From NCBI RefSeq assembly GCF_038405225.1, contig NZ_CP151657.1, positions 2,170,001 to 2,234,000 on the forward strand: DNA of 64,000 nt. Direction: 5' to 3'. Below are positions 13,946 to 49,346 of this stretch, piece by piece. The position numbers and the translations under genes were made by a program. The notes beneath the pieces are model-generated. The model made no database searches, was not told the origin of the DNA, and worked only from the letters and a program-made list of their open reading frames with translations. Origin of the DNA: Arthrobacter citreus. Lineage in GTDB: Bacteria; Actinomycetota; Actinomycetes; Actinomycetales; Micrococcaceae. Positions within the stretch are counted from its first letter, which is position 1. Every line of letters begins with the position of its first letter.

Positions 13946-14078
13946 ATCCATCGTGCAGATAACGGGGCTTCCCCGCATCCATCGTGCAGATAAGGGGCTC
14001 AAAAGGGCCGATTCCGACGTTTTGAGCCCCTTATCTGCACGAGAGAATTCCCCAAGGCCCGTTATCTGCACGAAAGAT
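13946..14078. repeat. Palindromic intergenic element, copy 1 (four-box, 31/57/31 geometry)
   Basis: Four copies of a core GTGCAGATAACGGG occur as two forward boxes (13953, 13984) and two reverse boxes (14033, 14064). The inner pair extends to a perfect 23-bp inverted repeat (13982-14004 with 14020-14042, 15-nt loop) and the outer pair is a perfect 16-bp inverted repeat (13951-13966 with 14058-14073). Box spacings are 31 bp on each side and the two inner boxes span 57 bp. The element lies after the 3' end of the GNAT gene at 14198 (minus strand) and upstream of gatC, and matches elements at 43796-43922 and 49211-49346. It could act as a strong terminator or RNA-stabilising hairpin. Confidence 0.9.
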
Positions 14079-14197
14079 CCGGCCTAAGCCGAATCACCCG
14101 CAAACGCGTCACCAGGACCTGACCCGTTGTGACCCGGAGGACCGCCGTGACTAAACGTTATGGGCCCGCGGGACGGGACGGGCCCCGGGGTTGAGTG

Positions 14198-14692
14198 CTA
14201 GAGCTCCAGGCAGAAGACCCAGAGAATGATGTCCTCGTTCGGCACGTACCAGTCGCGCTCGGGCACACGCTTGAAGCCCATGGACTTATACAGGGCATGC
14301 GCGTTGGTCATCGGGGTCATGCTGGTCAGGCTGACGGTGTGGATTCCGTCGAGGCTGCGCGCGTGCTCGATGACGGCGGCAACCAAAGCCCGGCCGACGC
14401 CGCCGCGCTGAAGCTGGGGGTCCACGGCGAGCATGCGGAATTCCAGCTCACCCTCGATGGCGATGTCAGTGTAGGGCTGACCGGCGAAGGTGATTGCGGT
14501 CGATGCCGCCACCTTGCCGTCCAGTTCGGCAACCCAGACCAGCGCGTTGGCCGCACGGTCTTCCACGTTTTCAAGTTCCTTGACGTAGGGGTTGTCTGCT
14601 TCGATGAACCCGGCGCTCAAATACGCATCACGGGTGATCCGGCGGATGTCGTCAAAGTCTGCCTCGGTGGCCTGCCGGACGGTAATGCTCAT
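14198..14692 (-). CDS. GNAT-family N-acetyltransferase
   Basis: 164 residues, a single GNAT fold. The acetyl-CoA-binding motif LQRGGVGRALVAAVIEHA and the preceding FRMLAVDPQ strand are clear, and ALYKSMGFKRVPERDWYV is motif B. The substrate is unknown. The gene stands alone, with a four-box palindromic element after its 3' end and the DksA-type gene upstream on the same strand. Confidence 0.88.
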   Translation of the reverse strand: MSITVRQATEADFDDIRRITRDAYLSAGFIEADNPYVKELENVEDRAANALVWVAELDGKVAASTAITFAGQPYTDIAIEGELEFRMLAVDPQLQRGGVGRALVAAVIEHARSLDGIHTVSLTSMTPMTNAHALYKSMGFKRVPERDWYVPNEDIILWVFCLEL

Positions 14693-14799
14693 GCGTGTTA
14701 CGAATCCTTACGTGGGGTCTTGATTTCCAACGTAGATTCTAGCCCCGCCAAACCATGACCATGCACCGGTGGTGACCCCGGACACGGCACGACGCCGGG

Positions 14800-15246
14800 T
14801 TACCGCCGTCGTGCCGCTGCGGCGCAGGAGACGCAGAACCGGGCTTCGGGCCGAATCTCCAAGCGCTCGGCGGGGATCGGATTCCCGCAGTTCTCGCACA
14901 CTCCGTAGGTTCCCCTATCCAGGCGGATGCGGGCATCCATCAATTCCACGAGGGATGATTCCGCCGCCGCCAGCAGCGCCATTTCGTTGTTCCGCTCCAC
15001 GGAGACCGTGGAGCCCTCCGGGTCGTGCTCGTCATCGGCGGGGGTATCTTTCGCGGCGAGAGTCACTTCGCGGATGTCGGCCAGGACGGACTCGATTTTC
15101 TCCCGCGCCTCGGCGATGCGTTCGTCCAGGAGCTGTGCAAAGTGCGTCGTGTCCAGATCAGCCGGGGTGGCGGGCCGGGGAGCCGGGGCTCGCGTGCCTG
15201 CCGCAGCCGGGGCCTTGTGGGCAGCAGCGGTTACTTTACGGGTCAT
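14800..15246 (-). CDS. DksA/TraR-type C4 zinc-finger protein
   Basis: 148 residues from an ATG with GGAGGAA upstream. An Ala/Pro-rich N-terminus (about 1-35) is followed by a helical coiled-coil-like region (FAQLLDERIAEAREKIESVL) and a C-terminal zinc finger: CENCGNPIPAERLE followed by ARFCVSC, with all four cysteines. DksA-like proteins bind the RNA polymerase secondary channel; in actinobacteria related proteins include RNA-polymerase modulators, but this protein's exact partner is inferred. The coiled-coil tip lacks an obvious DxxDxA motif (ARIRLDRGTYG), so classical DksA activity is uncertain. Confidence 0.88.
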   Translation of the reverse strand: MTRKVTAAAHKAPAAAGTRAPAPRPATPADLDTTHFAQLLDERIAEAREKIESVLADIREVTLAAKDTPADDEHDPEGSTVSVERNNEMALLAAAESSLVELMDARIRLDRGTYGVCENCGNPIPAERLEIRPEARFCVSCAAAARRR

Positions 15247-15457
15247 GGGATTCCTCCGGTCCATGAGTGGCAAGTTTCACCAATTATCCGCGCTCACCTG
15301 CTCAAACACCCGGTATCGGCAGGCCGCTTTCCTCAGGGCTTAATCGCGGCCGCGGCCGGAGCTTTACCGCTGGCCCCCACCGGGATCAATTAGCATGGCG
15401 GAAACCAAGACGAAGGCCGCCCGGACCTCTTTCAGCCGGCCGCACAGGGGGAACAGC

Positions 15458-16207
15458 ATGGTCGACGCGCACTACAACGAGCCGCGCCTGGTGGCGCTCT
15501 ACGACGAGGACAATTCCGGCCGTTGGGACACCGACTTCTACACCGGGCTCATGGGGACCGAACCGCTGCGCGTGGCCGACGTCGGCTGCGGCACCGGCAG
15601 TTTCGCCGTCCTGCTGGCGCAGGCCGGCCACGCCGTCACGGGCATCGATCCCGCGGAAGGGATGCTGGACGTGGCCCGGACCCGCGACGGCGGGGAGCTG
15701 GTGGCATGGCTGCCCGGCACCGCCGTGGACCTGCCCGAAGGACCTTTTGACGCTGCCGTCATGACCGGCCACGCGTTTCAATGCCTGCTGACCCAGGATG
15801 AAATCCTCGAAACGCTGCAGGCGGTGCGGTCCCGGCTGGCTCCGGGCGGCACCTTCTACTTCGAAACCCGCAATCCCGCGGCCAGGGCCTGGCTCGATTG
15901 GGACAGCGCCGCCGCCGGGCCCGAAGTGCAGGAGTCATCGGCCGGAACGCTGGAGGTTGAGTGGGAACTGATCTCCGTCCGGGAGATGCCCGACGGCGTC
16001 CTGGTCACCTTTGAGGACCGGACCCGGTTCCTGGCCGACGGCGCGGCGTTTGCCAGCCGCAGCACGCTGAAGTTCGTGCCGGCTGACCTGCTGGCTCAGC
16101 TGCTTCAGCATGCGGGCTTCACTTCCGCGGACTGGTACGGAGACTGGCAGGGCGGCCCGTTCGATCCCGCAGCCAGCCGGGAAATTATCGTCGCCGCCCG
16201 GCGGTAG
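15458..16207 (+). CDS. Class I SAM-dependent methyltransferase
   Basis: 249 residues from the ATG at 15458, which has AGGGGGA upstream; an ATG at 15395 would add 21 residues but has no ribosome-binding site. Motif I (LRVADVGCGTGSFAVLLA), the acidic end of strand 2 (VTGIDPAEGML), and a later FYFETRNP strand define a Rossmann-type methyltransferase of the small-molecule group. The C-terminal half (about 130-240) has a beta-rich insertion resembling family members that act on small acceptors. The substrate is unknown. Confidence 0.88.
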   Translation: MVDAHYNEPRLVALYDEDNSGRWDTDFYTGLMGTEPLRVADVGCGTGSFAVLLAQAGHAVTGIDPAEGMLDVARTRDGGELVAWLPGTAVDLPEGPFDAAVMTGHAFQCLLTQDEILETLQAVRSRLAPGGTFYFETRNPAARAWLDWDSAAAGPEVQESSAGTLEVEWELISVREMPDGVLVTFEDRTRFLADGAAFASRSTLKFVPADLLAQLLQHAGFTSADWYGDWQGGPFDPAASREIIVAARR

Positions 16208-16263
16208 ACGAGTGGCTTTACCGCCAGGCGCGTCCGGGGAACCGGATAGGCCATCATGGTGCC

Positions 16264-16878
16264 ATGACCGCGAATCCCACCGGCCCCCGTTGGCCCGTCA
16301 TCACGCCCCGCCTCACCATCCGTCCCGCCGAAGCCGAAGACCTGCCGCGCATGTTTGAGTACCGGCGGAAGCCCGAGGTCGCGCAATGGATGACAGCCCA
16401 GCCCACGGACGTTGACGCCTTCGTGGAGCGGCTCCGGCAGCCGGAGCAGATGGCGGCCACCTTTGCCGTGGAACAGGCCGGAGCCCTGGTCGGTGACCTT
16501 TACCTTGCCCGCCAGGACGCGTGGGCACAGCAGGAGGTAGCGGAGTTGGCGCGCGGCACGCAGGCCGAGATCGGTTACGTCATTGCACCGGAGTTCGCCG
16601 GGCGGGGGTACGCGAGTGAAGCCGTAGCCGCACTCATGCGCGTCTGCTTCGAGGACCTGGGCCTGCGCCGGGTGGTGGCGGAGTGTTTCGCCGACAACAC
16701 CGCTTCCTGGCGGGTCATGGAAAAAGCGGGGATGCGGCGTGAGGGGCGGTTCCGCCAGGGGTCCCTCCACCGTTCGGGGCGCTGGCTGGATGACCTCCGC
16801 TACGCGCTCCTGGCCGATGAATGGCGTGCTTCGCGGGCCGGCGGAAGTGCCGTGGCAGAACCGCCCCTCCACACCTAA
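16264..16878 (+). CDS. GNAT acetyltransferase, RimJ/RimL-like
   Basis: 204 residues. The N-terminus TPRLTIRPAEAEDLPRMFEY and the C-terminus RVMEKAGMRREGRFRQGSLH are typical of the RimJ/RimL-like group that acetylates N-termini or small molecules. The acetyl-CoA loop is IAPEFAGRGYASEAVAAL. It follows the methyltransferase by 56 bp on the same strand, so the two may be co-expressed. The natural substrate is not evident. Confidence 0.9.
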   Translation: MTANPTGPRWPVITPRLTIRPAEAEDLPRMFEYRRKPEVAQWMTAQPTDVDAFVERLRQPEQMAATFAVEQAGALVGDLYLARQDAWAQQEVAELARGTQAEIGYVIAPEFAGRGYASEAVAALMRVCFEDLGLRRVVAECFADNTASWRVMEKAGMRREGRFRQGSLHRSGRWLDDLRYALLADEWRASRAGGSAVAEPPLHT

Positions 16879-16889
16879 CCCAGCAGCTG

Positions 16890-17387
16890 TTACTCCTCGG
16901 AATCCTCGGCATCCGTGAGCTGGTCCAGGCCCAGGGAGCTAACGGCGGCCATGGCCGCCATCACGAGCCGGGGCCGGGCTACCCCGCGCCGGACGAGCCA
17001 CGTTTCGAGCCATTCGTCCAGCGCCAGGGTCAGGGCCAGGACCCCGCTCACGGTGACGCCCACCGTCGCAGCCAATCCGGTCACCGCGAGGACCGGCACC
17101 CGTGCGGGTGCGTCCGCACGCACGTACGAGGGAAGGGGTGCGGTGCCCGCAGCGCCATCGCCGGATCTGGAAGCGGCCGGAGAAACAAGATCCACTCGTC
17201 CGGCGGCAGCAAGTTCCCGGCCCTTCCGGCTGCCCTTCAGCACGGCGACGCCGCTGGTAACGCCGAGGACTGCCCCGGGGACGAGGACGAAAGCGCGGCG
17301 CCAGGCCGGCGACCAGTCGGCCGGGCTTCGCAGGGTGAGCGCGCCGGATAGGGCGGCGAGCGTGAGCGACAGCGGAAGATTCTTCAT
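16890..17387 (-). CDS. Small membrane protein of unknown function
   Basis: 165 residues. Hydrophobic segments lie at about 4-22, 30-50 (AFVLVPGAVLGVTSGVAVL) and 97-122 (PVLAVTGLAATVGVTVSGVL), with a further weak one near 140. An Ala/Gly/Pro-rich linker separates the halves, and the C-terminus is acidic (LTDAEDSEE). The ATG has TAGCGT 7 nt upstream. It lies downstream of the inositol-monophosphatase gene on the same strand. I do not recognise the family. Confidence 0.7.
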   Translation of the reverse strand: MKNLPLSLTLAALSGALTLRSPADWSPAWRRAFVLVPGAVLGVTSGVAVLKGSRKGRELAAAGRVDLVSPAASRSGDGAAGTAPLPSYVRADAPARVPVLAVTGLAATVGVTVSGVLALTLALDEWLETWLVRRGVARPRLVMAAMAAVSSLGLDQLTDAEDSEE

Positions 17388-17419
17388 GGCCTACACGCTA
17401 CATGCCGCCGGCGGCTGCC

Positions 17420-20442
<3,023 letters not shown>

Positions 20443-20561
20443 CTATCCAATCTTGCCCCATGACGCCTGCCTGCGGGAGCCGTGCGGCGCTGTGGAGCCG
20501 GACTTGAGCACCCCGGTGGGCTGTTCCTCCAGGAGTACGGGATCCCCGGGGCATTCCGGCA

Positions 20562-20593
20562 GGGCCGGGAACAACCGTTGCTGTTCCCGGCCC
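20562..20593 (-). terminator. Probable hairpin terminator between the ESAT-6-like gene and ligA
   Basis: GGGCCGGGAACA (20562-20573) pairs perfectly with TGTTCCCGGCCC (20582-20593) around an 8-nt loop. It lies after the stop of the minus-strand gene at 20649 and before ligA. No U-tract follows on either strand, so it may act as a weak or factor-assisted terminator. Confidence 0.55.
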
Positions 20594-20648
20594 CCCGTCC
20601 GGAGGGGGTGGGAATGGCTGAGCCGGCGCCGACGCATGGCTGCCGGTC

Positions 20649-20954
20649 CTAGCCAATGTTCTGCACGGCGCCCCTGGCACGGGCCCCCGCACTGGACGCC
20701 GTCTGGTCATTGAGGTTCAGGGTCTGCTTGACGAGGGCAATGATGTTCCTGGTCTCATTGGCTGCATTCCTAAACCGGTTCTCCACTGACTGGTATTCGT
20801 CGGAGACACCATCGGCCTGAAAATCCGACATGGCGGAATTCACCGATTTCTCCCGCTCGCCGATCAGGGATTCCAGTTGCCCCACCAGGGACTGGATATC
20901 CCCCTGCACTGCGGCGGAGGTGTCAGTGTCATAGCTCAAACGATCCTGGGACAT
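20649..20954 (-). CDS. ESAT-6/WXG100-like small protein
   Basis: 101 residues, all-helical, with two amphipathic helices broken near the middle (SAMSDFQADGVSDEY), the hairpin layout of WXG100 substrates of type VII secretion. The W-x-G turn is replaced by ADG, a common variation in the pore-forming ESAT-6-like subgroup. The C-terminal half (NAANETRNIIALVKQTL) is the second helix. It is the closest gene to another small helical protein at 21084 and lies about 4 kb from the eccD/eccC genes, so it is a likely secreted substrate. Export is inferred, not shown. Confidence 0.75.
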   Translation of the reverse strand: MSQDRLSYDTDTSAAVQGDIQSLVGQLESLIGEREKSVNSAMSDFQADGVSDEYQSVENRFRNAANETRNIIALVKQTLNLNDQTASSAGARARGAVQNIG

Positions 20955-21024
20955 GGCATACCTTTCAAAATCAGTCGGAAAATCAGGTCAGGCAGAACGA
21001 AGGGACAGAACTCGTCACCGTGGC

Positions 21025-21096
21025 GCGGTCAGCTCAATATGCTGCGGTCAGCTCAATGTGCCGCCGTCAGCGCGAGGCTGCCGTCAGCGCGAGGAA
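21025..21096. repeat. Four tandem copies at the 3' end of the WXG-like gene
   Basis: Two 19-bp units (GCGGTCAGCTCAATATGCT and GCGGTCAGCTCAATGTGCC) are followed by two 17-bp units starting GCCGTCAGCGCGAGG. The stop codon of the gene at 21084 lies in the fourth unit, and every unit carries TCA at the matching position (TGA on the minus strand). It looks like a small tandem amplification of the gene end into the intergenic region. Confidence 0.75.
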
Positions 21097-21419
21097 CCGA
21101 AACGCGCAGCATCAAAGGCGGCGGCCCCCTGCTGCTGCTGGGCGTTGTCCGCGCTTTCCTGGTCACCCAGGTGAAAGGACCGGTCCATCTCGGACTGCCC
21201 CATGAGAATGGCGGCCAGGGATACGTTCAGCTCGTTGGCCACTTCGTCGGTGCGGGCCTTGAACTCGTCAAACTTCACCCGGCCTGAGCCGTTGAACTTT
21301 CCCTCCAGCGGAGCCACCGCCTGCACCAGCGCGCGCACCAGCTGACCGAGGTCCTGGTTGGAGGCGCCCGTCTGCTGCGTCAGCGTTCCAAGTGTCTGGG
21401 AACCCATATCGAATTTCAT
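21084..21419 (-). CDS. WXG100-like small helical protein, probable type VII substrate
   Basis: 111 residues from the ATG at 21419, which has AAGGTGG six bases upstream; an adjacent GTG at 21422 is the only alternative. Two helices flank a central KFNGSGRVKFDEF turn, resembling WXG100 proteins with F-N-G in place of W-x-G. The C-terminus is a Gln/Ala-rich flexible tail (ADNAQQQQGAAAFDAARF). It pairs with the similar gene at 20649, and such pairs often form heterodimers before export. The stop codon sits within a small tandem repeat. Confidence 0.75.
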   Translation of the reverse strand: MKFDMGSQTLGTLTQQTGASNQDLGQLVRALVQAVAPLEGKFNGSGRVKFDEFKARTDEVANELNVSLAAILMGQSEMDRSFHLGDQESADNAQQQQGAAAFDAARFGSSR

Positions 21420-21714
21420 CACTGCCCACCTTCAGCGCCTCTGCGCCATCGTCCGGTTCGGTCCGGCGGTAACCCGGGCTCCCCTGCGGGATGCCGTTGG
21501 CTCTCCCCCGCTGGCTGCCCGTTGGCCTGCCGATGGCTATATCCAACGCGGACGCCCGGGGAAACACCATGCAAGCGCCCAGCCTGTGGATAACTGCGGA
21601 AAGCTGCTGCAGCAGGTGTGCGGGGCCCCGCAACCGCACGCCGGGGAACCGCTTAACCGCCGCCTGTGAAACTGCCGCCGGCAGAATGGCCTTCCGCCGC
21701 GCGCGGGGTAAACC

Positions 21715-21743
21715 TTGCTATGGTGTGGCGCACCTGCTAGGCC
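21715..21743 (+). promoter_or_regulatory. Candidate promoter for the molybdopterin oxidoreductase gene
   Basis: TTGCTA and TAGGCC are separated by 17 bp and lie 82 bp upstream of the GTG at 21825, a plausible sigma-70-type promoter. The rest of the 405-bp gap (21420-21824) is GC-rich and shows no gene or strong repeat. Confidence 0.5.
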
Positions 21744-21824
21744 TATTCGTACGGATGTGGCGGGCCGGCCGGGATGATCCCGGACCGGAGACCGCCGACG
21801 GCGGATGGTGAAGGGAAGTGCAGA

Positions 21825-37487: not shown

Positions 37488-39079
<1,592 letters not shown>

Positions 39080-39083
<4 letters not shown>

Positions 39084-39343: not shown

Positions 39344-39437
39344 GCAGCCTCGGCTCCCACCGGCCCCGGCGGGACAGAAGTTACACGTGTGACTCATGAA
39401 CACGTTGTGCAGGCGGCGTTGGCGTTAGGCTTCACCT

Positions 39438-41162
39438 GTGACCCAACAGACTCCTTCATCAGATCCCCTGTCCTTCGGCAGCGCGCAGTACCGCCAGCCG
39501 ACCGCCATCGACGCCGTCGCCGATGCCTTCACCGAGACTCTGCTGCAGCTGGATCCCTCCCTCGCCACATCCCTGGGTATTCCGGGGTATGAGACCGAAT
39601 ACGCCGATTACTCGCCCGCGGGCCAGGAATCCGGAGCCGAAGCCATCCGCGAGACGCTGGAACGGCTCGACGGGCTGCAGCCGGCCGACGACGTCGACCG
39701 CGTTACCCTCGATGCGATGCACGAGCGCCTCGGCCTGGCACTGGAAATCCATGAGTCCGGCTGGAACCTCTCGGACCTGAACAACATTGCCTCCCCCGCG
39801 CAGGAAATCCGTTCGATCTTCGACCTCATGCCCACCGCCACGGTGGAGGACTGGCAGAACATCTGCGGCCGGCTGAATAACGTTGATGACGCAGTCTCGG
39901 GCTACATCACCTCACTGCGCGCCGGCAAGGAGCGCGGCCTGCTGCCCGCAAGCCGCCAGGTCCAGATCGTCATGGAACAGACCGCCAAGTACGCCGAGGA
40001 CGGCGGCTTCTTCGACGACTACGCCGCCAAGGCCGCACTGTCCGGCGGCGAATCCCTTCCGGACAAGCTGGCCGCAGAGGTGCGCGCCGCCGCCGAATCC
40101 GCCCGTGCCGCCTACCGCAGCCTTGCCGCATTCCTGGAATCCGAGCTGCTGCCCGCTGCCCCTGAAAAGGACGCCGTCGGCAAGGACCGCTACGCCCTGA
40201 TGTCCCGCCTGTTCCTGGGTTCGGCCGTGGACCTGGAGGAGACCTACCAGTGGGGCGTGGAGGAACTGGACCGCATCATCGCCGAGCAGGAGGCCGTTGC
40301 CGAACAGATCAAGCCCGGCGCCACCGTCGAGGAGGCCATGGCGATCCTGGACGAAGATCCCGAGCGGCAGCTGCACGGCACCGCTGAACTGCAGGCCTGG
40401 ATGCAGGGCCTGGCCGACCGCGCCGTCGCCGACCTGGCCGGAACCCACTTCGAGATCAACGGCCCGATGCGGCAGATCGAGTGCATGATCGCTCCCACGC
40501 AGGAGGGCGGCATCTACTACACCGGCCCCAGCGACGACTTTTCCCGCCCGGGCCGCATGTGGTGGTCCGTTCCCGCCGGCGAGGACACCTTCACCACGTG
40601 GAAGGAAACCACCACCGTTTATCACGAGGGTGTTCCCGGCCACCACCTGCAGATTGCGACGGCGACGGCCGCCCGCGGGCTGCTGAACAACTGGCGCCGC
40701 AACATCTGCTGGGTCTCAGGCCACGGCGAGGGCTGGGCGCTGTACGCCGAGCGGCTGATGGACGAGCTGGGCTACCTCAGCGATCCCGGCGACAAGATGG
40801 GCATGCTCGACGCCCAGCGCATGCGCGCCGCCCGCGTGGTCTTCGACATCGGCGTCCACCTGGAGCTGGAGATCCCCGAGCGCTGGGGCTCCGGCACCTG
40901 GACGGCGGATAAGGGGTATGAGTTCCTGCGGAAGAACCTTGCCATCTCCGAGGGGCAGCTGAACTTCGAGTTCACCCGCTACCTCGGCTGGCCCGGGCAG
41001 GCTCCGGCCTACAAGCTGGGCCAGCGGCTCTGGGAGCAGATCCGGGACGAAGTCCGCAGCCGCGAGGGTGAGGACTTTGACCAGAAGGACTTCCACACCC
41101 GCGCCCTGGCCCTGGGGTCCGTAGGTCTGGACACCCTGCGGCGGGCGCTGCTGGACGCATAA
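39438..41162 (+). CDS. DUF885 family protein
   Basis: 574 residues. The HExxH-like block TTVYHEGVPGHHLQIATA and the downstream SGHGEGWALYAERLMDELGY are the defining DUF885 motifs, which suggest a zinc-dependent hydrolase fold; the substrate is not known. There is no signal peptide, so it should be cytoplasmic. The GTG start has TAGGCT exactly 6 nt upstream and no Shine-Dalgarno sequence, so the transcript is probably leaderless. Confidence 0.9.
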   Translation: MTQQTPSSDPLSFGSAQYRQPTAIDAVADAFTETLLQLDPSLATSLGIPGYETEYADYSPAGQESGAEAIRETLERLDGLQPADDVDRVTLDAMHERLGLALEIHESGWNLSDLNNIASPAQEIRSIFDLMPTATVEDWQNICGRLNNVDDAVSGYITSLRAGKERGLLPASRQVQIVMEQTAKYAEDGGFFDDYAAKAALSGGESLPDKLAAEVRAAAESARAAYRSLAAFLESELLPAAPEKDAVGKDRYALMSRLFLGSAVDLEETYQWGVEELDRIIAEQEAVAEQIKPGATVEEAMAILDEDPERQLHGTAELQAWMQGLADRAVADLAGTHFEINGPMRQIECMIAPTQEGGIYYTGPSDDFSRPGRMWWSVPAGEDTFTTWKETTTVYHEGVPGHHLQIATATAARGLLNNWRRNICWVSGHGEGWALYAERLMDELGYLSDPGDKMGMLDAQRMRAARVVFDIGVHLELEIPERWGSGTWTADKGYEFLRKNLAISEGQLNFEFTRYLGWPGQAPAYKLGQRLWEQIRDEVRSREGEDFDQKDFHTRALALGSVGLDTLRRALLDA

Positions 41163-41205
41163 CCCAGCAGTCTCAAGGGACATTGATCACAGTGTTCCAG
41201 GGAAT

Positions 41206-41256
41206 AACCCCCGGGGTGCGGCGACTGGCCGCCACATTCCGGGGGTTTTGCCTTTC
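41206..41256 (+). terminator. Terminator after the DUF885 gene
   Basis: AACCCCCGG pairs with CCGGGGGTT (9 bp) over a loop that itself contains GGCG and CGCC segments, followed by TTGCCTTTC on the plus strand. Confidence 0.75.
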
Positions 41257-41342
41257 TGCGGCGCGGAATGCGCTGCGGGCTCCACGTAATATTTCGCAAT
41301 AGGCAATCTTCTCTGATAAGCGGCGCGGTCTAGTATTTTCAA

Positions 41343-42890
41343 GTGACCTCACAGACTTCCTCCCCCAAGACCTTCACCGGCCGCAGGCTGCCCCGGTGGG
41401 CTACTGCCTTCGGACCGCAGATCATTGCCGCCCTCGTGGCGGGCCTGCTGCTGGGCCTGTTGGCCAAGAGCATGGGTACTGTCGGCGACGGCGAGCCCAA
41501 CTGGCTGACCACCACCCTGAACACCATCGGCACGAGCTACGTCTCGCTGCTGAAGGCCGCCGTCGTACCCCTGATCTTCACCGCCGTAGTCAGCTCCATT
41601 GCCAACCTGCGCGCCGTCTCCAACGCCGCACGGCTGGCATGGCAGACCCTGCTCTGGTTCGCGATCACGGCTCTGATCAGTGTGGTCATCGGCATCCTGC
41701 TGGGCGTCATCCTGCAGCCGGGCAACACCTCAAACGTTCCTGAGAAGGAATTTACGGGCAGCCAGGGCAGCTGGGTAGGATTCCTCACCGGTCTGGTGCC
41801 GGGCAACTTCCTCGGCCTGGGCGCCAGCTCCAAGGTTGCCGAGAGCGGTGATGTCAGCACCAGCATCAGCTTCAATGTGCTCCAGATCCTGGTCATCGCC
41901 ATCGCCGTCGGCATTGCCGCCCTGAAGGTGGGCAAGCCCGCTGAACCGTTCCTGGCCCTGAATGCGTCGGCTCTGGCCGTCATCCAGAAGGTTCTGTGGT
42001 GGATCATCCGCCTCGCCCCGGTGGGCACCATCGGCCTGATCGGCACCGCCGTGGCCACCTACGGCTGGGACACCATCGGTTCGCTGGGCATGTTTGCCGT
42101 GACCATCTACATCGGCCTGTTCCTGGTCCTGTTTGTTGTCTACCCGGTCCTGATCAAGGCGCACGGCCTGTCCGTCCGCCAGTGGTTCTCCGGCGCCTGG
42201 CCCGCCATCCAGCTGGCCTTCGTCTCCCGCTCCTCGGTGGGAACCCTGCCGCTGACCCAGCGGGTCACGGAGCGCAACCTCGGCGTCTCCCGCGCCTACG
42301 CCTCCTTCGCCGTGCCGCTGGGCGCCACCACCAAGATGGACGGCTGCGCCTCGATCTACCCGGCCGTCTCCGCGATCTTCGTGGCACAGTTCTTCGGCAT
42401 CGATCTGGGCTTCACCGATTACCTGCTGATCGCCCTCGTGTCGGTGCTGGGCTCGGCCGCAACCGCCGGAACCACCGGCGCCGTCGTCATGCTGACCCTG
42501 ACGCTGTCCACCCTGGGCCTGCCGCTGGCCGGCGTGGGCCTGCTGCTCGCCATCGACCCGATCCTGGACATGGGCCGCACCGCGGTCAACGTGGCCGGAC
42601 AGACCGTGGTCCCGGCGATCGTCGCCAAGCGCAACGGCCTGCTGGACCTGGCCATGTACAACGCCAAGCGCAACGGCGATCCGTTCGCCGACGACTCCTC
42701 CGAGGTTGAGGTGCCGGTGCTGGTTCCGGCCGGCGCTTCGGCTCGTGCCGAGGGTGCCGAGGGTGCCGCTACGGATGGAACGACTACCGCCGCTGCTGAC
42801 GGAACTCCTGTCGCTGGCATCAACCGTCCGGGAGCAGACGGAGGCGCGCGCGCAACCGATGCGGCGCCGTCGTCTTCCAACAAGCGCTAA
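41343..42890 (+). CDS. Dicarboxylate/amino acid:cation symporter (DAACS family)
   Basis: 515 residues. The core of eight membrane segments with two hairpin loops is seen. Hairpin 1 carries SRSSVGTLPLT and the later TM7 motif is GATTKMDGCASIYP (usually NMDGT); TM8 has DPILDMGRTAVNVAGQ with the substrate-contacting Asp and Arg. It transports C4-dicarboxylates or acidic/neutral amino acids with Na+ or H+; the substrate is not settled. A long Ala/Gly/Pro/Ser tail (about 460-515) is atypical. TAGTAT lies 6 nt upstream of the GTG start, suggesting a leaderless mRNA. Confidence 0.9.
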   Translation: MTSQTSSPKTFTGRRLPRWATAFGPQIIAALVAGLLLGLLAKSMGTVGDGEPNWLTTTLNTIGTSYVSLLKAAVVPLIFTAVVSSIANLRAVSNAARLAWQTLLWFAITALISVVIGILLGVILQPGNTSNVPEKEFTGSQGSWVGFLTGLVPGNFLGLGASSKVAESGDVSTSISFNVLQILVIAIAVGIAALKVGKPAEPFLALNASALAVIQKVLWWIIRLAPVGTIGLIGTAVATYGWDTIGSLGMFAVTIYIGLFLVLFVVYPVLIKAHGLSVRQWFSGAWPAIQLAFVSRSSVGTLPLTQRVTERNLGVSRAYASFAVPLGATTKMDGCASIYPAVSAIFVAQFFGIDLGFTDYLLIALVSVLGSAATAGTTGAVVMLTLTLSTLGLPLAGVGLLLAIDPILDMGRTAVNVAGQTVVPAIVAKRNGLLDLAMYNAKRNGDPFADDSSEVEVPVLVPAGASARAEGAEGAATDGTTTAAADGTPVAGINRPGADGGARATDAAPSSSNKR

Positions 42891-42910
42891 TCCCGCTGCA
42901 CTGCCTCTCG

Positions 42911-42967
42911 AAGGCCGCTCCGGATGTCCGGGGCGGCCTTTGTGCTGCCGGGGCGGCCTTCGTGCTG
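42911..42967 (+). terminator. Terminator after the symporter, with a 20-bp tandem duplication
   Basis: AAGGCCGC (42911-42918) pairs with GCGGCCTT (42933-42940) and is followed by TTTG. The right arm is part of a 20-bp unit, CCGGGGCGGCCTTTGTGCTG (42928-42947), that is repeated directly at 42948-42967 with one change. Confidence 0.7.
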
Positions 42968-43002
42968 TCCGGGCGCTCCCGCGGGCGCACTAGGCTGGAG
43001 GG

Positions 43003-43635
43003 GTGACTGACCTGAACCTGATCCTCGCTTCCGCCTCCCCCGCCCGCACCAAGTTGCTGACCAACGCGGGAATCGCCCATTCCGTGCTCGTGTCCGACGT
43101 CGACGAAGACGCCGTGACCGCCCGCTACGGCCTGACCGATCCGCACGACACCGCCCTGCTGCTCGCCCGTGCCAAGGCCGAAGCGGTGGCCTCACTGCCC
43201 GAGGCTGACGGCGCCCTGGTCATCGGCTGCGACTCGGTCTTCGAGTTCGACGGCGAGGCGCACGGCAAGCCGTGGGAGCCCGAAGTTGCCCGTGAACGGA
43301 TCCGCCGGATGAGCGGCCACGTGGGCGTGCTGCACACCGGCCACTGGCTGGTGGACTGCCGGGATACCGACGACGACGGGTCGGGTGCAACGCTCGGCGG
43401 CGTCAGCTCCGCGTCGGTCCACTTTGCGAAGCTGACCGACGAGGAAATCGATGCCTATGTTGCAACCGGCGAGCCGCTTCAGGTGGCCGGTTCCTTCACG
43501 ATCGATTCCCTTGGCGGCGCCTTCATCGAGAAGGTCGACGGTGATCCGCATGCCGTCGTCGGGCTCTCCGTGTCGATGCTCCGCGAGCTGCTCGCCAGTG
43601 CCGGTGTGAAGATCACGGACCTCTGGGACCGGTAA
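43003..43635 (+). CDS. maf: Nucleoside triphosphate pyrophosphatase, Maf family
   Basis: 210 residues. The N-terminal LILASASPARTKLLTNAGI signature, the catalytic VIGCDSVFEFDG and the KAEAVASL region are typical of Maf, which hydrolyses non-canonical or modified nucleoside triphosphates. The GTG start follows GGAGGG, and TAGGCT is 6 nt upstream. The gene stands in the acc cluster, the same position as maf (Rv3282) in mycobacteria. Confidence 0.93.
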   Translation: MTDLNLILASASPARTKLLTNAGIAHSVLVSDVDEDAVTARYGLTDPHDTALLLARAKAEAVASLPEADGALVIGCDSVFEFDGEAHGKPWEPEVARERIRRMSGHVGVLHTGHWLVDCRDTDDDGSGATLGGVSSASVHFAKLTDEEIDAYVATGEPLQVAGSFTIDSLGGAFIEKVDGDPHAVVGLSVSMLRELLASAGVKITDLWDR

Positions 43636-43695
43636 TTCCGCTTTCCTCTGAAGTCCCTAGGTTTATCTGATGTCCCAAGTCTGGTGGCGGGCGCC

Positions 43696-44079
43696 AAGCC
43701 CCTGATCTGCACAATAGATCCACCCCGGGGCCGGCTGACCCCACAAACGTCATCCTTCGTGCAGATAACGGGCCATCAGCACCGTCCGAGCAATCCTTCG
43801 GACAGATAACGGGACATCAAAACATCCTTCGGGCACATAACGGGACCAAGACCCCGAAAAACGCTTTTTTGAGCCTCTGATCTGCACGAAGGATTCCGGG
43901 AAAGCCCCTGATCTGCACAATGGATCCACCCCGGGGTCGGCAGACCCCTCAAACGTCATCCTTCGCGCAGATAACGGCCCATCAGCACCGTCCCAGCGAT
44001 CGTTCGTGCAGATAACGGGCCATCAGCACCGTCCAAGCGATCCTTCGTGCACATACCTGGGCCATCACCACCGATTGAA
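43696..44079. repeat. Repeat array with palindromic element, copy 2, and 41-bp tandem units
   Basis: Nine cores of the GTGCAGATAACGGG family are seen. Forward copies are at 43759, 43800, 43831, 43965, 44006 and 44047; reverse copies at 43705, 43880 and 43911. Forward copies 43759-43800 and 43965-44006-44047 are exactly 41 bp apart, sharing ATCAGCACCGTCC in between. A 105-bp segment (43696-43800) is directly repeated at 43902-44006 with only a few changes. The boxes 43800, 43831, 43880 and 43911 keep the 31/57/31 layout of the elements at 13946 and 49211. No coding sequence is seen between maf and the convergent gene at 44093. Confidence 0.9.
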
Positions 44080-44092
44080 GCCGGTACCCTGC

Positions 44093-45049
44093 TCAGCCGG
44101 GGTTCCTTGAGTTTGGGGTTGGACGCCAGCCGCCTAGAACCAAACCACGACGAACTTTGTCCACGACAAACTCCTTGCCCCGCCGGAAATCGTCCCGGGC
44201 AATCTTCACCTGAATCCACCCTGCTTCTGCGGTTGCCAGATCCCGCTGATGGTCGCTGGCCTGCTGCTCCGGAGTCAGGTGGTGTCCGCCGTCGTACTCC
44301 AGGCAGGTGCGAAAACGTGCGCAGGCAAGATCCGTCCACACCACCGGCAGCCCTCTCCTGTCCGTGATGGGGAAGTTCGGGACAAACTCGGGCAGCCCGG
44401 CGTGATGAAGCAGCAGCCGCAGCCAGGATTCCGGCGGCGAGTCCACCCCCACGCGCACCAGTCCGAGTGCGGCACGGGACGGTTGAAGGTTCGGCAGCCA
44501 CCGTTTGGACTCCACATAGGCGGTCAACTCCGCCAGAGAAAAAATGGACTGCCGGGGCGGACCGAACGAACGGCGGTACTCGCTGACAATATGGTCCCCG
44601 GCGACAACCAGCTCGTCCAGGGTGAGCAGGCCAGCCAAGTCCAGCCAGGTCCGTGCCACTGACGTCACCTGAATTCCGGCGACCGGCATAACCTCGGAAG
44701 CGTCAAGGGCGAGCCGGTGGCCCTGGACGCCGCGCCGCCGTGGTGCTGCCTCAGTGGGTGGTCTGCTCAGATGAATGGCCGCGTCAGTTTCCAGCCGGGC
44801 GGGCAGCGGTAAGTTGTGGATCCGGGCTGCCGTCGTATGGCTGACCACCACCCCGGGGAGGAGCACCACGTACGGTCGGCAGCGGTCGATCAGCGTCGGT
44901 TCGGCTCCGTGCGGCACTCGGATCGCCCGGCTCGATACGGCAAGATCCCTGCCCCGCAGCCGGTCCCGCGTCAGTCCGGCAGCCAGTCCTTGCGGCAGGG
45001 TGAAGGGCAGGGTCAGAGGGGGCGGCAGTGGACGACGTCGGGCAGGCAT
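44093..45049 (-). CDS. AbiEi-like / DUF559 nuclease-fold protein
   Basis: 318 residues from the ATG at 45049; a GTG five codons upstream is possible. The N-terminal region (about 25-130) has a helix-rich domain with VVVSHTTAARIHNLPLPARL, as in AbiEi antitoxin-like proteins. The C-terminal part has a very-short-patch-repair/DUF559 type pattern: ESWLRLLLHHAGLPEFVPNF, then WTDLACARFRTCLEYDGGHH and QRDLATAEAGWIQVKIARDD, giving candidate catalytic Glu/Asp residues. These proteins are widespread in actinobacteria; nuclease activity is inferred. The stop lies immediately next to the repeat array. Confidence 0.75.
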   Translation of the reverse strand: MPARRRPLPPPLTLPFTLPQGLAAGLTRDRLRGRDLAVSSRAIRVPHGAEPTLIDRCRPYVVLLPGVVVSHTTAARIHNLPLPARLETDAAIHLSRPPTEAAPRRRGVQGHRLALDASEVMPVAGIQVTSVARTWLDLAGLLTLDELVVAGDHIVSEYRRSFGPPRQSIFSLAELTAYVESKRWLPNLQPSRAALGLVRVGVDSPPESWLRLLLHHAGLPEFVPNFPITDRRGLPVVWTDLACARFRTCLEYDGGHHLTPEQQASDHQRDLATAEAGWIQVKIARDDFRRGKEFVVDKVRRGLVLGGWRPTPNSRNPG

Positions 45050-45127
45050 GCCTCTATTAGGCACCGTTTAGGCCGGCTGCAGGGGTTATCCACAGGCGCC
45101 GGACTCCTCAAGCTCCGGACGACAGCT

Positions 45128-45436
45128 TCAGGAGCTGCGGGTGTTCCTCTGAGCCTGGCCGCCGACCCTCCGGGCGCCTTCGTTGTGCCGCATGACCAGC
45201 GAGGCACCGACCAGGGCCGCGGAGAATGGCACGCAGAACTGCACCAGGAGGGAATAGACGGTCGACACCGTCATGCCCACGGGTGCCACCACCCACAGCT
45301 GCGTCGTGGATGCGGAAACGCCTCCCACACCGAAATTCCCGATGATGATTGGACCCAGAACAATCAGCGCTGCCCCCGTGATTCCCAGGACGACGCCGAC
45401 CCGCATGACGGTGCTCGAAAGCGAACGTTCAGACAT
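45128..45436 (-). CDS. Small two-TM membrane protein
   Basis: 102 residues from the ATG at 45436, which has GAGGAG upstream; the long frame extension to 45625 is low-complexity and unsupported. Hydrophobic segments lie at about 12-35 (VGVVLGITGAALIVLGPIII) and 50-80 (WVVAPVGMTVSTVYSLLVQF). The end is basic (RRVGGQAQRNTRSS). No family is recognised. Confidence 0.7.
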   Translation of the reverse strand: MSERSLSSTVMRVGVVLGITGAALIVLGPIIIGNFGVGGVSASTTQLWVVAPVGMTVSTVYSLLVQFCVPFSAALVGASLVMRHNEGARRVGGQAQRNTRSS

Positions 45437-45655
45437 GACACTCCTCTGGTAGCTGGCCGGACTTGTCCGCTCAGCCAACCACACTTCGTCCCCGTACGGT
45501 CCTGCGCGGGAACGGCCTGTTGCACCGACGGCGATGCCCGGTCCCGGAACCACCCGCAACCCCGGTCCAGGAACCACCGGCGATCCAGCCCCCGGACCCG
45601 CCGCACGGACCGCCCTGAACCCCACCGGTGCAGACCGTCACGAAACACGCACGAG

Positions 45656-45672
45656 TTGTAGGGTCCCCACAA
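45656..45672. promoter_or_regulatory. Operator-like palindrome upstream of accC (gap 45437-45770)
   Basis: TTGTAGGGTCCCCACAA is palindromic with two mismatched pairs, and 14 of 17 positions match the site at 37362 before accD. It lies about 100 bp upstream of the ATG at 45771. A TAGGCT -10-like hexamer occurs at 45734. No other gene is seen in the 334-bp gap, although the 45540-45600 stretch contains two imperfect copies of a CCGGTCCnGGAACCACC unit. Confidence 0.65.
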
Positions 45673-45770
45673 CGAAATGCTTCTTCCCACGCACAAACAG
45701 CACGCAATATGGCCGGAGACCACAAAACCGCGCTAGGCTCCGAAGAGATCAAAAGGAGCCAGTGCATTCA

Positions 45771-47615
45771 ATGAGCCAGTTCAACCCCGCGCCCGCCGGC
45801 GACCAGCAGCACACACAGCAGAGCCGCACCATCACCAAAGTCCTGATCGCCAACCGCGGCGAAATCGCAGTTCGCGTCATCCGGGCCGCCCGCGACGAGG
45901 GCCTGACTTCGGTTGCTGTCTACGCCGATCCGGACCGCGATGCACTGCACGTCCGCCTCGCCGATGAGGCCTACTCCCTGGGCGGCAGCACGGCTGCCGA
46001 GTCCTACCTGGACATGGGCAAGATCCTCGACGCCGCCCGCAAGTCCGGCGCCGACGCCATTCACCCGGGCTACGGTTTCCTCTCCGAGAACGCCGAGTTT
46101 GCCCAGCGCGTCATCGACGCCGGCCTGACCTGGATTGGCCCGTCCCCGCACGCCATTTCCCAGCTCGGTGACAAGGTGCAGGCCCGCCATATCGCCGCGA
46201 AGGTTGGCGCACCGCTGGTTCCCGGCACCGCCGATCCGGTGAAGAATGCCCAGGAGGTCCTTGACTTCGCTGACGCACACGGCCTGCCGCTGGCCATCAA
46301 GGCTGCCTTCGGCGGCGGCGGCCGCGGCATCAAGGTTGCCCGCACCCGCGCTGAAATCCCCGAAATGTTCGAGTCCGCCGTCCGCGAGGCCACGGCAGCC
46401 TTCGGCCGCGGCGAGTGCTTCATCGAGCGCTTCCTCGATGCCCCGCGGCATGTCGAAACCCAGTGCCTGGCCGACGCGCACGGCAACGTCGTCGTCGTCT
46501 CCACCCGCGACTGCTCGCTGCAGCGCCGCAACCAGAAGCTTGTGGAGGAGGCTCCCGCTCCGTTCCTGACCGAGGAGCAGAACGAGCGCCTGTACACGGC
46601 ATCCAAGGCGATCCTCCGCGAGGCCGGCTACCAGGGTGCGGGTACCTGCGAGTTCCTGGTCGGCACCGACGGGACCATCTCCTTCCTCGAGGTCAACACG
46701 CGGCTGCAGGTTGAGCATCCCGTGTCCGAGGAAGTCACAGGCCTTGACCTGGTCCGTGAGCAGTTCCGGCTGGCCCGCGGCGAAGAGCTCGGCTACGGCG
46801 ATCCCGAGATCCGCGGCCACTCCTTCGAGTTCCGCATCAACGGCGAAGATCCGGGCCGCAGCTTCATGCCCGCCCCCGGAACCGTGGACACCTTCAAGCT
46901 GCCCTCCGGCCCCGGCGTCCGCGTCGATTCCGGCATCGAGGCCGGCGAGACGGTTGGCGGCAACTTCGATTCGATGCTGGCCAAGCTGATCATCACCGGC
47001 GCCACCCGCGAGCAGGCACTGCAGCGCGCCCGCCGGGCCCTGGCCGAAATGGAAATCACCGGCATGCCCACCGTGCTGCCGTTCCACGCCGCTGTGGTCG
47101 CGCATCCCGATTTCGCCCCCGCGGCCGGCCCCTTCAGCGTCCACACGCGCTGGATCGAAACTGATTTCGTCAACGAGATCCCGGCCTGGTCGGGCGAGCA
47201 AAACACACGGCACGACGACGACGCCGGCAACCGCCAGCGCGTCACCGTTGAGGTGGGAGGCAAGCGGCTCGATGTCGTGCTGCCAGCCGGCCTGGGCGGA
47301 TCCGGAAATGGAAGCAACGGGTCCGGTCGCGGCGCCGGAGCCAACGGAAAGTCCCGCAAGTCATCCCGCACCCGCGGCGGAGCCAACCCGGCCGCCACCG
47401 GCGATGACCTGACGTCCCCGATGCAGGGCACCATCGTCAAGGTGGCCGTCCAGGAAGGCGCGCAGGTTTCCGAGGGCGATCTCGTCGTCGTACTCGAAGC
47501 CATGAAGATGGAGCAGCCGCTGACCGCGCACAAGTCCGGAACGGTCTCCGGGCTCAGCGCCCTCCCCGGCGCAACGGTTTCCGCCGGCGCAGTGATCGCC
47601 TCGATCCTGGACTAG
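45771..47615 (+). CDS. accC: Acyl-CoA carboxylase alpha subunit (biotin carboxylase plus BCCP)
   Basis: 614 residues. The biotin carboxylase half carries [17 protein letters not shown], the ATP-grasp loop [11 protein letters not shown], and the [10 protein letters not shown] and [14 protein letters not shown] blocks. After a Gly/Ser/Arg-rich linker (about 505-545) the C-terminus has the biotinyl domain with EAMKMEQ, the lysine modified by BirA. It is an AccA3-like fused subunit. The ATG at 45771 follows AGGAG, and the long upstream frame extension lacks support. With accD and accE it forms the acyl-CoA carboxylase feeding fatty acid or propionyl-CoA metabolism. Confidence 0.95.
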
Positions 47616-47649
47616 GCTCAGCCGGACCCCAGAAGGTCCGCAAACGCCA

Positions 47650-47690
47650 AACGGCCCGATCCCCGCACTGCGGGGACCGGGCCGTTCTGC
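47650..47690. terminator. Bidirectional hairpin terminator after accC
   Basis: AACGGCCCG pairs with CGGGCCGTT (9 bp), with a further inner TCCCCGC / GCGGGGA pairing (7 bp) and one mismatched pair between. It lies between convergent accC and the MFS gene. Confidence 0.8.
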
Positions 47691-47705
47691 TTGTACTGGA
47701 GCCGC

Positions 47706-49109
47706 TTAGCTCGAGTGGTTCGCGTAGTCGACGTCCTTGGTGTCCTTGGTGACGAACAGCGCGATCAGCGTCAGCACCGCCATCGAGGACAGGTAGACGC
47801 CCACCAGCCACGGGCTTCCATCGGCCGCCTGCCACAGCGCCACGGCGATGAACGGAGCCACAGCGGCACCGAGGATGGAAGAGACGTTGTAGGCAATGGC
47901 CGAGCCGGTGTAACGCACGTTGGTCGGGAAAAGCTCCGGCAGCATGGCGCCCATCGGCCCGAAGGTCAGGCCCATCAGCGTGAAGCCGATGATCAGCAGG
48001 GCCATGACACCCACCGTTCCGCCGTCGAACAGCGGAGAGAAGGTGAAGCCGAAGACGAAGATACCGGCGGTGACAACCAGCAGCGTCTTGCGGCGGCCGA
48101 ACTTCTCGGCCAGCGGACCGGAGACGAGCGTGAAGATTCCAAAGAACACCACGCCGATGATCAGCATGATCAGGAAGTCGTTGCGGGCATAACCCAGGCC
48201 TGCGGCGAAGGTTTCCGGATCGAAGGCCTTACCGGCCTTTTCGGCTGCGGCGCGGGCCGCTTCCTCGCTCTTGGCGGCGGTGCCGTAGGAGAGCGTGAAC
48301 GTGGTCATCAGGTAGAACAGCACGTAGGTGGCCAGCATGATGAACGTGCCGGCAATCATCGGACGCCAGCTGTACTTAAACGCACGGCTCAGCGGCAGCT
48401 TGCTCACTTCACCGGAGTCCACAACCTTCTGGAAGGCCGGGGTCTCCACCAGCTTCAGCCGCACGTACAGGCCAATGATCACCATGACGGCGCTGGCCAG
48501 GAACGGAATGCGCCAGCCCCAGGAATCGAACTGATCGGCGTCCAGCTGGAAGCTCAGCAGCAGGAACAGGCCGTTGGCCAGGATGAACCCGATCGGCGCC
48601 CCCAGCTGCGGGAACGTTCCCCAGACGGCGCGCTTGTTGGCCGGCGCGTTCTCCGTTGCCAGCAGTGCGGCGCCGGACCATTCCCCGCCGAGCGCGAGTC
48701 CCTGGGCGAAGCGCAGTACCACCAGCATTGCCGGGGCCAGGATCGTCCAGCCGTCGACGGCGGTGGGCAGGCAGCCGATGAGGAAGGTTGCAATTCCCAT
48801 GGTCAGCAGCGATGCCACGAGGGTTCCCTTGCGGCCAACCTTGTCACCGAAGTGCCCAAAGATGATCGAACCCAGCGGGCGGGCAATGAACGCCACACCA
48901 AAGACGGCGAAGGAGCTCAGCAGCGCGGTGACGCCTTCGGCGTTCGGGAAGAAGAGGCGCGGGAACACGAGGACTGCGGCGGTGGCGTAGACGTAGAAGT
49001 CATAGAACTCAATGGAGGTTCCAACCAGGCTGGCAATGATCACCCGGCCCTTGGAGTTGGCCTTGGCCGGTGCCGATGCCGGCTCCGCGGAGGGATTCGT
49101 AGTAGACAT
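47706..49109 (-). CDS. MFS transporter, metabolite:H+ symporter (MHS) family
   Basis: 467 residues, 12 membrane segments. The loop 2-3 signature GHFGDKVGRKGT and the WGWRIPFLASAVMVIIGLYV region match the MHS family (ShiA, PcaT, KgtP and proline/betaine-type carriers). The substrate is an organic acid or osmolyte, not determined. The N-terminus is short and Ala-rich before TM1. Two direct-repeat operator half-sites lie upstream at 49164 and 49184. Confidence 0.9.
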   Translation of the reverse strand: MSTTNPSAEPASAPAKANSKGRVIIASLVGTSIEFYDFYVYATAAVLVFPRLFFPNAEGVTALLSSFAVFGVAFIARPLGSIIFGHFGDKVGRKGTLVASLLTMGIATFLIGCLPTAVDGWTILAPAMLVVLRFAQGLALGGEWSGAALLATENAPANKRAVWGTFPQLGAPIGFILANGLFLLLSFQLDADQFDSWGWRIPFLASAVMVIIGLYVRLKLVETPAFQKVVDSGEVSKLPLSRAFKYSWRPMIAGTFIMLATYVLFYLMTTFTLSYGTAAKSEEAARAAAEKAGKAFDPETFAAGLGYARNDFLIMLIIGVVFFGIFTLVSGPLAEKFGRRKTLLVVTAGIFVFGFTFSPLFDGGTVGVMALLIIGFTLMGLTFGPMGAMLPELFPTNVRYTGSAIAYNVSSILGAAVAPFIAVALWQAADGSPWLVGVYLSSMAVLTLIALFVTKDTKDVDYANHSS

Positions 49110-49163
49110 TTGGGGGTCTTTCGGAAGGTGGGAGTGACGTTCTCGACAATGTTAGGACTGCCG

Positions 49164-49199
49164 GTCCACCATCCGGACATGCTGTCCACCATGTGGACA
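49164..49199. promoter_or_regulatory. Duplicated operator upstream of the MFS gene
   Basis: GTCCACCATCCGGACA and GTCCACCATGTGGACA begin exactly 20 bp apart, two turns of the helix. The second is a palindrome (TGTCCAC / GTGGACA) and both hold the GTCC...GGAC half-sites. They lie about 55-90 bp upstream of the start codon, overlapping the likely promoter region. A regulator is not encoded nearby. Confidence 0.7.
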
Positions 49200-49209
49200 G
49201 GACGGTCAA

Positions 49210-49346
49210 TCCATTCACAGTGCAGATAACGGGACAACCCAGAATCTATCGTGCAGATCGCGGGACCAAAAGGGTCAAAATCCGGCTTTTGCGGCCTTTA
49301 TCTGCCCGAAGGATCCATGGAAGGCCCAGTATCTGCCCGAAGGATT
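49210..49346. repeat. Palindromic intergenic element, copy 3
   Basis: Forward boxes at 49220 and 49251 (GTGCAGAT) and reverse boxes at 49300 and 49331 (ATCTGCCC) reproduce the 31/57/31 spacing of the elements at 13946 and within 43696-44079. The flanks are ATCCTTC-like in the reverse half (GAAGGATCC, GAAGGATTC). The loop between the inner boxes (49259-49299) also contains AAAA...TTTTG, as at the other loci. It lies between the MFS gene start and the terminator of lpdA. Confidence 0.9.

Follow-up and report, generated by a model that had tools for sequence, protein, structure and literature searches.

What are the arrays of short, oriented boxes that recur between genes of Arthrobacter citreus, and which protein, if any, do they serve? 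Three of them lie in the stretch analyzed here, 64,000 nucleotides from contig NZ_CP151657.1 (assembly GCF_038405225.1), which we call the window; it covers bases 2170001-2234000 of a 3.88-Mb single contig. The source genome is referred to as G000, and G010 is the closest other genome found. A first-pass annotation of the window had proposed a family of intergenic elements, each with two forward and two reverse boxes in fixed geometry, and had listed a repetitive extragenic palindrome (REP) or bacterial interspersed mosaic element (BIME), a terminator, and a site for a nucleoid or mobile protein as possible roles. We consider the following explanation probable: the arrays would be double-stranded DNA platforms for protein binding, most likely by the AbiEi-DUF559 protein encoded beside one of them, and array and gene would form a selfish nuclease-and-array pair.

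The box coordinates confirmed the geometry of the three elements (Table 1). In each, the 14-mers that mark the boxes start 31, 43, and 31 bp apart, which gives a span of 57 bp for the inner pair and 119 bp for the outer pair. Other parts of the description needed amendment. The boxes do form a real sequence family, with 24 matches to GTGCAGATAACGGG in the window at ≤3 mismatches, compared with a mean of 4.68 and a maximum of 11 in shuffles, but most are inexact, and the four of element 2 carry two or three mismatches each. Those four boxes are present as described, although element 2 is larger than a four-box unit: its nine boxes lie at 43699-44060, and spacings of 41 bp occur among them besides those of 31 bp. 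An AAAA...TTTTG loop had been reported for all three; elements 1 and 3 have it at corresponding positions, whereas element 2 has CCAAGA there, with an AAAAA run further in and TTTTTTG on the right.

The arrays are not confined to the window. At ≤1 mismatch, the box occurred in 78 places of G000, which fell into 23 clusters (reversed control, 0), and a sequence model of the arrays added one cluster, giving 24. This family-1 model had matches at E ≤ 1e-4 in 18 of the genus's 29 genomes, of which three reached no better than ~4e-5, and the box GTGCAGATAANGGG was present in 16 of 119 genomes, 15 of this genus and one (G037) of another. Counts of places in other genomes come partly from among the matches listed and are lower bounds; clusters are non-independent across species, and p values are nominal throughout. 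Within each unit the boxes point to a shared centre, with one to several boxes per arm, and some units are tandemly repeated. A phage or plasmid origin was rejected, as the one array core searched had no match in phages and plasmids and no tandem box pair was found in viral contigs.

Distances between boxes followed the DNA helix. Among 170 pairs of same-strand neighbors (≤130 bp), the spacing was 31 bp in 105, 41 in 45, 30 in 7, 51/52 in 4, and some other value in 9. Convergent pairs (n = 67) were 43 bp apart in 55 cases and 33 in 4, and divergent pairs (n = 19) gave a best period of 10.4 bp, with 0 of 10000 random sets equally good. Searching a collection of 84,980 species with tandem boxes allowed 26-56 bp apart returned five stretches, three at 31 and two at 41. 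The spacing had been called invariant; 31/57/31 is indeed the commonest form, but 41 and 51/52 are also used, and a centre of 33 occurs in other box types. The two inner boxes of a family-1 unit tend to differ, ...AACGGG being the usual form of one and ...CAGGGG that of the other. All 21 convergent pairs that included a CAG or CAA box were 43 bp apart, and those of AAC-like boxes (n = 12) were 33 in eight, 43 in three, and 35 in one. Tandem spacings of 40-42 bp were found for none of 15 CAG-type pairs versus 23 of 48 AAC-like pairs (p 0.0004).

The spacing rule also holds, for the most part, in the genus's other box families, whose sequences differ. Arrays of GTGCAGCTCTGGCGG, mainly in G003, G004, and G019, had tandem spacings (n = 68) of 41/42 in 54 and 31 in 8, and convergent spacings of 32 in 22/25; those of GTACAGCTAACGGG (G013) had 41 in 3/3 and 33 in 4/4, respectively. 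A search of 295 genomes of the bacterial family for convergent CAGATAACGGG pairs, with the gap left free between 8 and 38, gave 31 places in 11 genomes, all from this genus, and 30 of the 31 gaps were 19 (33 start to start), the last being 21. Boxes of GTGCAGYAGATGCT were 33 apart in 8/9 convergent pairs, and their 12 tandem distances were scattered. Near position 1500 of loci L090, L091, L093, L096, L097, and L098, inverted pairs TTCATAGTGCAGTAGATGC...GCATCTACTGCACTATGAA stand by arrays of the other clade; as boxes, these are GTGCAGYAGATGCT. Because the spacing outlasts the box sequence, a bound protein is favored over descent from a single master copy. Phasing of this kind requires a protein but does not single one out.

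A candidate for this protein is encoded next to array 2, on the far side of which lies maf. All 29 genomes match the DUF559 protein of the window, PF04480 finds 0-2 proteins per genome, and array 2 itself has an orthologue in G010. Species-specific boxes could be read by eye in most of 27 DUF559-maf stretches, doubtfully in G002, G005, G016, G017, G022, and G025. Under a strict rule (a convergent pair at 32, 33, or 43), such pairs were called in 14/28 loci at the DUF559 slot, 7/29 at the GNAT-gatC slot, and 3/29 at the lpdA slot, compared with 0 in shuffles (p 0.002); all three slots entered the comparison because G000 carries arrays there. Motif-free inverted pairs were found in the 350-bp 3′ flank of 20/27 orthologues (p 3e-6) and the 5′ flank of 4/27, compared with 24/100 control genes from one genome, a rate which shows that such pairs are common at that threshold. 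The maf-slot gene is reduced to fragments only in G006 (C8:223782-224255) and G012 (C1:1150944-1151254), so it seems dispensable there.

The boxes also vary in step with this gene. Identity of DUF559 to the window copy was 85% in G010, 67% in G021, and 51-58% in the others (the G006 fragment omitted), and identity of maf was 87-99%, with 80% in G009. With maf identity removed, DUF559 and box identity remained correlated across 25 genomes (partial r 0.573; 0/5000 permutations); from the 28 slot loci, G024 (no maf in the locus), G023, and G006 (broken) were omitted, and G012 has fragments only. Among four stretches of the protein, co-variation was highest, at 0.64, for residues 72-148, the AbiEi-like part. 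Single genomes illustrate the pattern: G021 has the GNAT gene furthest from that of G000 among eight array-rich genomes, yet the second closest DUF559, and G019 is near G000 by gatC and GNAT but has a distant DUF559 and second-family boxes. G003, G004, and G019 carry 21, 23, and 23 occurrences of that second-family pattern (3, 3, and 7 at the slot), whose count nowhere else in the genus exceeds four, and the DUF559 proteins of these three genomes group at 66-81%. Boxes unlinked to the gene agree in part with the DUF559 grouping. Because the arrays vary in step with the nuclease-like gene beside one of them, they are probably the sites that its protein binds. The first-pass annotation allowed for a nucleoid or mobile protein and named the DUF559 gene only as a neighbor; a nucleoid protein is possible, and the DUF559 protein is now the best candidate for the partner.

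What the protein contains fits a putative DNA-binding part joined to a nuclease-like part. The PADLOC AbiEi model matched all 26 orthologues at E ≤ 0.001, and at E ≤ 0.01 PF04480 matched 17/26 and PF18741 11/26; in the window protein, the DUF559 domain scored just above the cut-off. Across 26 sequences, D245, E256, H261, H262, Q285, and V286 do not vary, a set compatible with a Vsr/PD-(D/E)XK nuclease. NCBIfam gave no hit for the protein, and the best matches of a profile search against the PDB were glucokinases (E 0.11), with 3hrl, an "Endonuclease-Like Protein," at E 0.21. The gene has maf, an open reading frame with a sub-threshold BrkB match, and biotin carboxylase as neighbors in the window, and no member of the AbiEii (DUF1814) toxin family was found among the neighbors scanned.

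DUF559 homologues away from the maf slot are often bracketed by repeats of their own. Counting as bracketed any gene with a 16-mer common to its 5′ and 3′ flanks at 15/16 or better, we found 4/9 paralogues and 6/7 homologues on other actinobacterial replicons, compared with 1/97 control genes (p 1e-9 for 10/16), the homologues on other replicons coming from few, non-independent organisms. Their replicons are those of Arthrobacter ERGS1:01, StoSoilB13, and Tsukamurella, and the sole miss, Nonomuraea, reached 14/16. Upstream of the ERGS1:01 gene, boxes recur at 31 bp, and when matches up to E 10, a loose threshold, are counted, this upstream stretch has 14 places on its own 754-kb replicon. In the nine paralogues, motif-free inverted pairs were present in three 3′ flanks and one 5′ flank. 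By eye, paralogues of ~36% identity in L312, L315, L317, and L318 adjoin a purL-like gene and those in L314 and L316 a purH-like gene; a homologue from Tsukamurella has a purC-like gene on one side and purB on the other. A purine-gene neighborhood recurs.

Table 1. Arrays and associated genes of the window (window coordinates; box starts refer to 14-mers and are followed by the strand)
Feature	Position	Strand	Description
Array 1	13946..14078	none	Boxes 13953+, 13984+, 14027-, 14058-; centre 43; GNAT gene 3′ end on one side, gatC 5′ side on the other
Array 2	43690..44067	none	Nine boxes: 43699-, 43759+, 43800+, 43831+, 43874-, 43905-, 43965+, 44006+, 44047+; core 43793-43925; maf/DUF559 gene interval
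Array 3	49213..49345	none	Boxes 49220+, 49251+, 49294-, 49325-; lpdA 3′ end (with its own terminator-like hairpin) on one side, MFS transporter gene 5′ side on the other
maf	43003..43635	+	Slowly changing neighbor; yardstick for DUF559
DUF559 gene, 323 aa	44093..45064	-	AbiEi-like 72-148, DUF559 nuclease-like 244-306; candidate partner protein

The genomic surroundings of the arrays were scored with our own codon-model gene calls for those clusters of seven genomes that had three or more good boxes (n = 58), a threshold below which element 3 of the window fell. A single cluster overlaps a gene end, by 37 bp, and the contexts were 36 tandem, 19 convergent, and 3 divergent, which upholds both the intergenic bias and the placement after gene 3′ ends that were noted from three copies. 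Immediately beside the 24 arrays of G000 lie ordinary genes, among them gatC and those for thymidylate synthase, histidinol dehydrogenase, and a gyrase/topoisomerase IV A subunit. The 48 nearest flanking proteins, of which 44 have a Pfam match, include a few common regulators, and, setting aside one gene that sits between two neighboring arrays, no gene family was common to the flanks of different arrays beyond three distant paralogue pairs (30-33%). Among those listed in five complete genomes (G000, G001, G003, G004, and G019), 1 of 57 family-1 clusters lies ≤0.5 Mb from dnaA versus 15.0 expected, a count uncontrolled for the usual conservatism near origins. In G013, a further three short stretches match the DnaA domain with identical scores (G013:C1:1639685, 2291849, and 3403340); they may be transposition ATPase copies.

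Arrays have been gained and lost between species. Some slots are common to several species and many are not; the GNAT-gatC slot holds family-1 arrays in G000, G010, G003, and G019 and other box types in G013 and G001. At the same slot, G004 has an extra stretch (G004:C1:1132315-1133454, L156) in which, by eye, an apparent P-loop coding sequence (GGSSSGKSS-like) lies by boxes. For eight G000 sites, the G010 counterpart holds an array in three, a single box in one, and none in four; the lpdA site of array 3 is also empty there. Across 64 cores, non-tandem copies within a genome are ≤87% identical, so dispersal was not recent; three orthologous core pairs reach 95-98%, and the rest are lower. Alignments of nine 133-bp elements had 98 gap columns (five elements had none) versus 1133 in nine pairs of 150-bp flanks.

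From the architecture, phasing, spread, linkage, and co-variation observed above, a mechanism can be sketched. Each ~21-bp box would hold one protein unit, and boxes three, four, or five helical turns apart would place the units on the same DNA face, where, judging from the architecture, they may cooperate across the dyad at which the two arms meet, giving a compact nucleoprotein complex. The partner would be the AbiEi-DUF559 protein encoded at array 2, whose recognition and boxes would have changed together, lineage by lineage; by analogy with AbiEi antitoxins, we infer that the AbiEi-like part binds the boxes. More speculatively, the nuclease-like domain would probably nick or cut at or near the arrays, and repair after the break might lengthen or copy an array. 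Cutting and copying of this kind would make a selfish pair that follows the logic of REP elements and their RAYT transposases with unrelated parts.

Two other readings fared poorly. That they are RNA or single-strand hairpin elements, REP-like or terminators, is hardly credible: the arms are complementary enough for folding and the arrays are frequently downstream of genes, but across 28 cores the complementarity was about what single columns predict, with two positions per box unpaired in most copies, and in a 24-sequence alignment 78.3% of cells paired compared with 79.3% after shuffling (497/500 shuffles at least as high). Selection on structure or on spaced binding had both been suggested, and of these, helical phasing without arm covariation supports binding and not paired structure. 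A structured RNA was ruled out by the lack of compensatory changes and of any Rfam match in the window at gathering scores. As for REP and BIME in the strict sense, the arrays are dispersed between genes with units in both orientations (24 clusters), a REP-like trait; the linked RAYT-type transposase that had been proposed as a check was not found, with Y1_Tnp (PF01797) absent from all 29 genomes and the control positive in 5/14, and the A1 consensus of the conserved box has no GTAG or CGTC tag at its end, so that REP/RAYT was rejected on these points together with the lack of covariation. The terminator proposal failed at the two sites inspected, lpdA and 2052250, where the array has next to it a distinct GC hairpin with a T run that G010 retains despite having no array there. 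The absence of arm covariation and of RAYT, along with these hairpins, disfavors REP, hairpin, and terminator readings alike. A passive mobile element, whether a miniature inverted-repeat transposable element or a transposon end moved by an unrelated transposase, is also very unlikely. The several oriented, phased boxes per arm do resemble complex transposon ends, and gain and loss between species would fit; on the other side, neither a clean target duplication nor a clean junction was seen at lpdA or the other compared sites, although the intergenic flanks there are badly eroded, the 87% ceiling speaks against recent dispersal, and no transposase family appears in the 48 nearest flanking proteins of the G000 clusters, although no genome-wide transposase search was made.

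Two further alternatives concern which protein binds and what follows from binding. Our main alternative, unlikely but deserving of weight, gives the DUF559 protein an operator-only role, in which it autoregulates like AbiEi and the dispersed arrays are a regulon or relics, with no nuclease-driven copying. AbiEi proteins do autoregulate via 23-bp inverted repeats, according to PMC7319586, and boxes lie upstream of several DUF559 homologues, but the maf-slot arrays are mainly 3′ rather than 5′ of the gene (20/27 versus 4/27), divergent-promoter contexts are few (3/58), and the nuclease-like residues are invariant. It is rather improbable that the arrays bind another protein, nucleoid-associated or regulatory, and that the DUF559 link reflects one often-recombining slot. 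Phasing does not name its protein, the arrays adjoin ordinary genes and are depleted near dnaA among the clusters listed, and in G001 the slot and dispersed boxes disagree; co-variation of DUF559 and boxes given maf argues the other way, as does the fact that homologues elsewhere, including those of other families, are bracketed. Several observations weigh against a selfish AbiEi-DUF559 pair itself. The DUF559 slot was picked out only after arrays had been seen there in several species, the boxes of the Mantel test behind the partial correlation were hand-chosen and hand-registered, and linked replacement of the gene with its adjoining array could be a part-source of that correlation. Only 2/27 maf-slot orthologues are bracketed on both sides. 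The G001 slot box, GAACAGGTAACGGG, is unlike the dispersed family-1 boxes of that genome, which may be relics, and species without any array-model match still carry DUF559 genes, so having the gene is not enough to disperse arrays. In nine orthologous pairs, change was about as frequent in boxes (71/714) as in linkers and centre (51/428), which goes against a simple selection story, and the predicted structure of the protein failed (pLDDT, a per-residue confidence score, 30.3). On balance, we describe genus-wide, helix-phased arrays that probably serve protein binding, with the DUF559 protein as the likely partner.

That this amounts to an undescribed class in Actinobacteria, in which an AbiEi-DUF559 nuclease gene is accompanied or bracketed by its own helix-phased inverted boxes, copies these to other sites between genes, and co-evolves with them in specificity so fast that nearly every species has a version of its own, is a tentative proposal to which we give somewhat less than even weight. 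The parts of the system, AbiEi-like and DUF559, are known families; judged by titles and the beginnings of abstracts, the open-licence PMC literature gave no description of such arrays. If the reading is right, it would supply a DNA target and a testable mechanism for DUF559/AbiEi proteins, neither of which was given in the portion of the literature examined, and a second, unrelated answer to the question that REP and RAYT raise, namely how short intergenic repeats spread and persist. With strict spacing and box types that differ between close species, the arrays would also offer a natural series for the co-evolution of protein and site.

Compared with known systems, the arrays fail a defining feature of REP elements, of terminators, and of known RNA families, and, in the case of AbiE, the adjoining toxin. 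STAR and similar repeats are likewise intergenic and have been compared across related species; they are described as direct repeats, however, and the part of their description available has no phased convergent layout (PMC3532100). Proteins of the DUF559/REase_MTES_1575 (Vsr-like) group are related through the PF04480 and PF18741 matches in the orthologues, and the open-licence literature searched, as far as its accessible portions go, assigns them no DNA site. REP/BIME elements with RAYT share more: as portrayed in the excerpts of PMC2817692 and PMC3733652, they are intergenic, dispersed, composite, present in both orientations, and biased to 3′ ends, and the linked gene is flanked by its own repeats, as it would be here on our reading. 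REP units nevertheless are short palindromes tagged GTAG or CGTC, whereas our arrays are untagged and helix-phased, without arm covariation and without Y1 in the 29 genomes. The AbiEi-family antitoxins (AbiE; Rv2827c) are linked to the DUF559 proteins by the model matches in 26/26 orthologues, although the DUF559 protein adds a nuclease-like domain and had no AbiEii hit in the neighbors scanned. Their operators stand in the antitoxin's own promoter by the toxin gene, unlike arrays that lie mostly on the 3′ side of genes and genome-wide. According to PMC7319586, AbiEi binds 23-bp inverted repeats that are 3 bp apart in its own promoter, and for a mycobacterial homologue the gap within a pair is 13 bp and four repeats stand in a row. 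The gap between inverted repeats thus varies by 10 bp between proteins. For boxes of ~21 bp with pair spacings that likewise differ by 10 bp, no biochemical parallel comes closer than these AbiEi operators.

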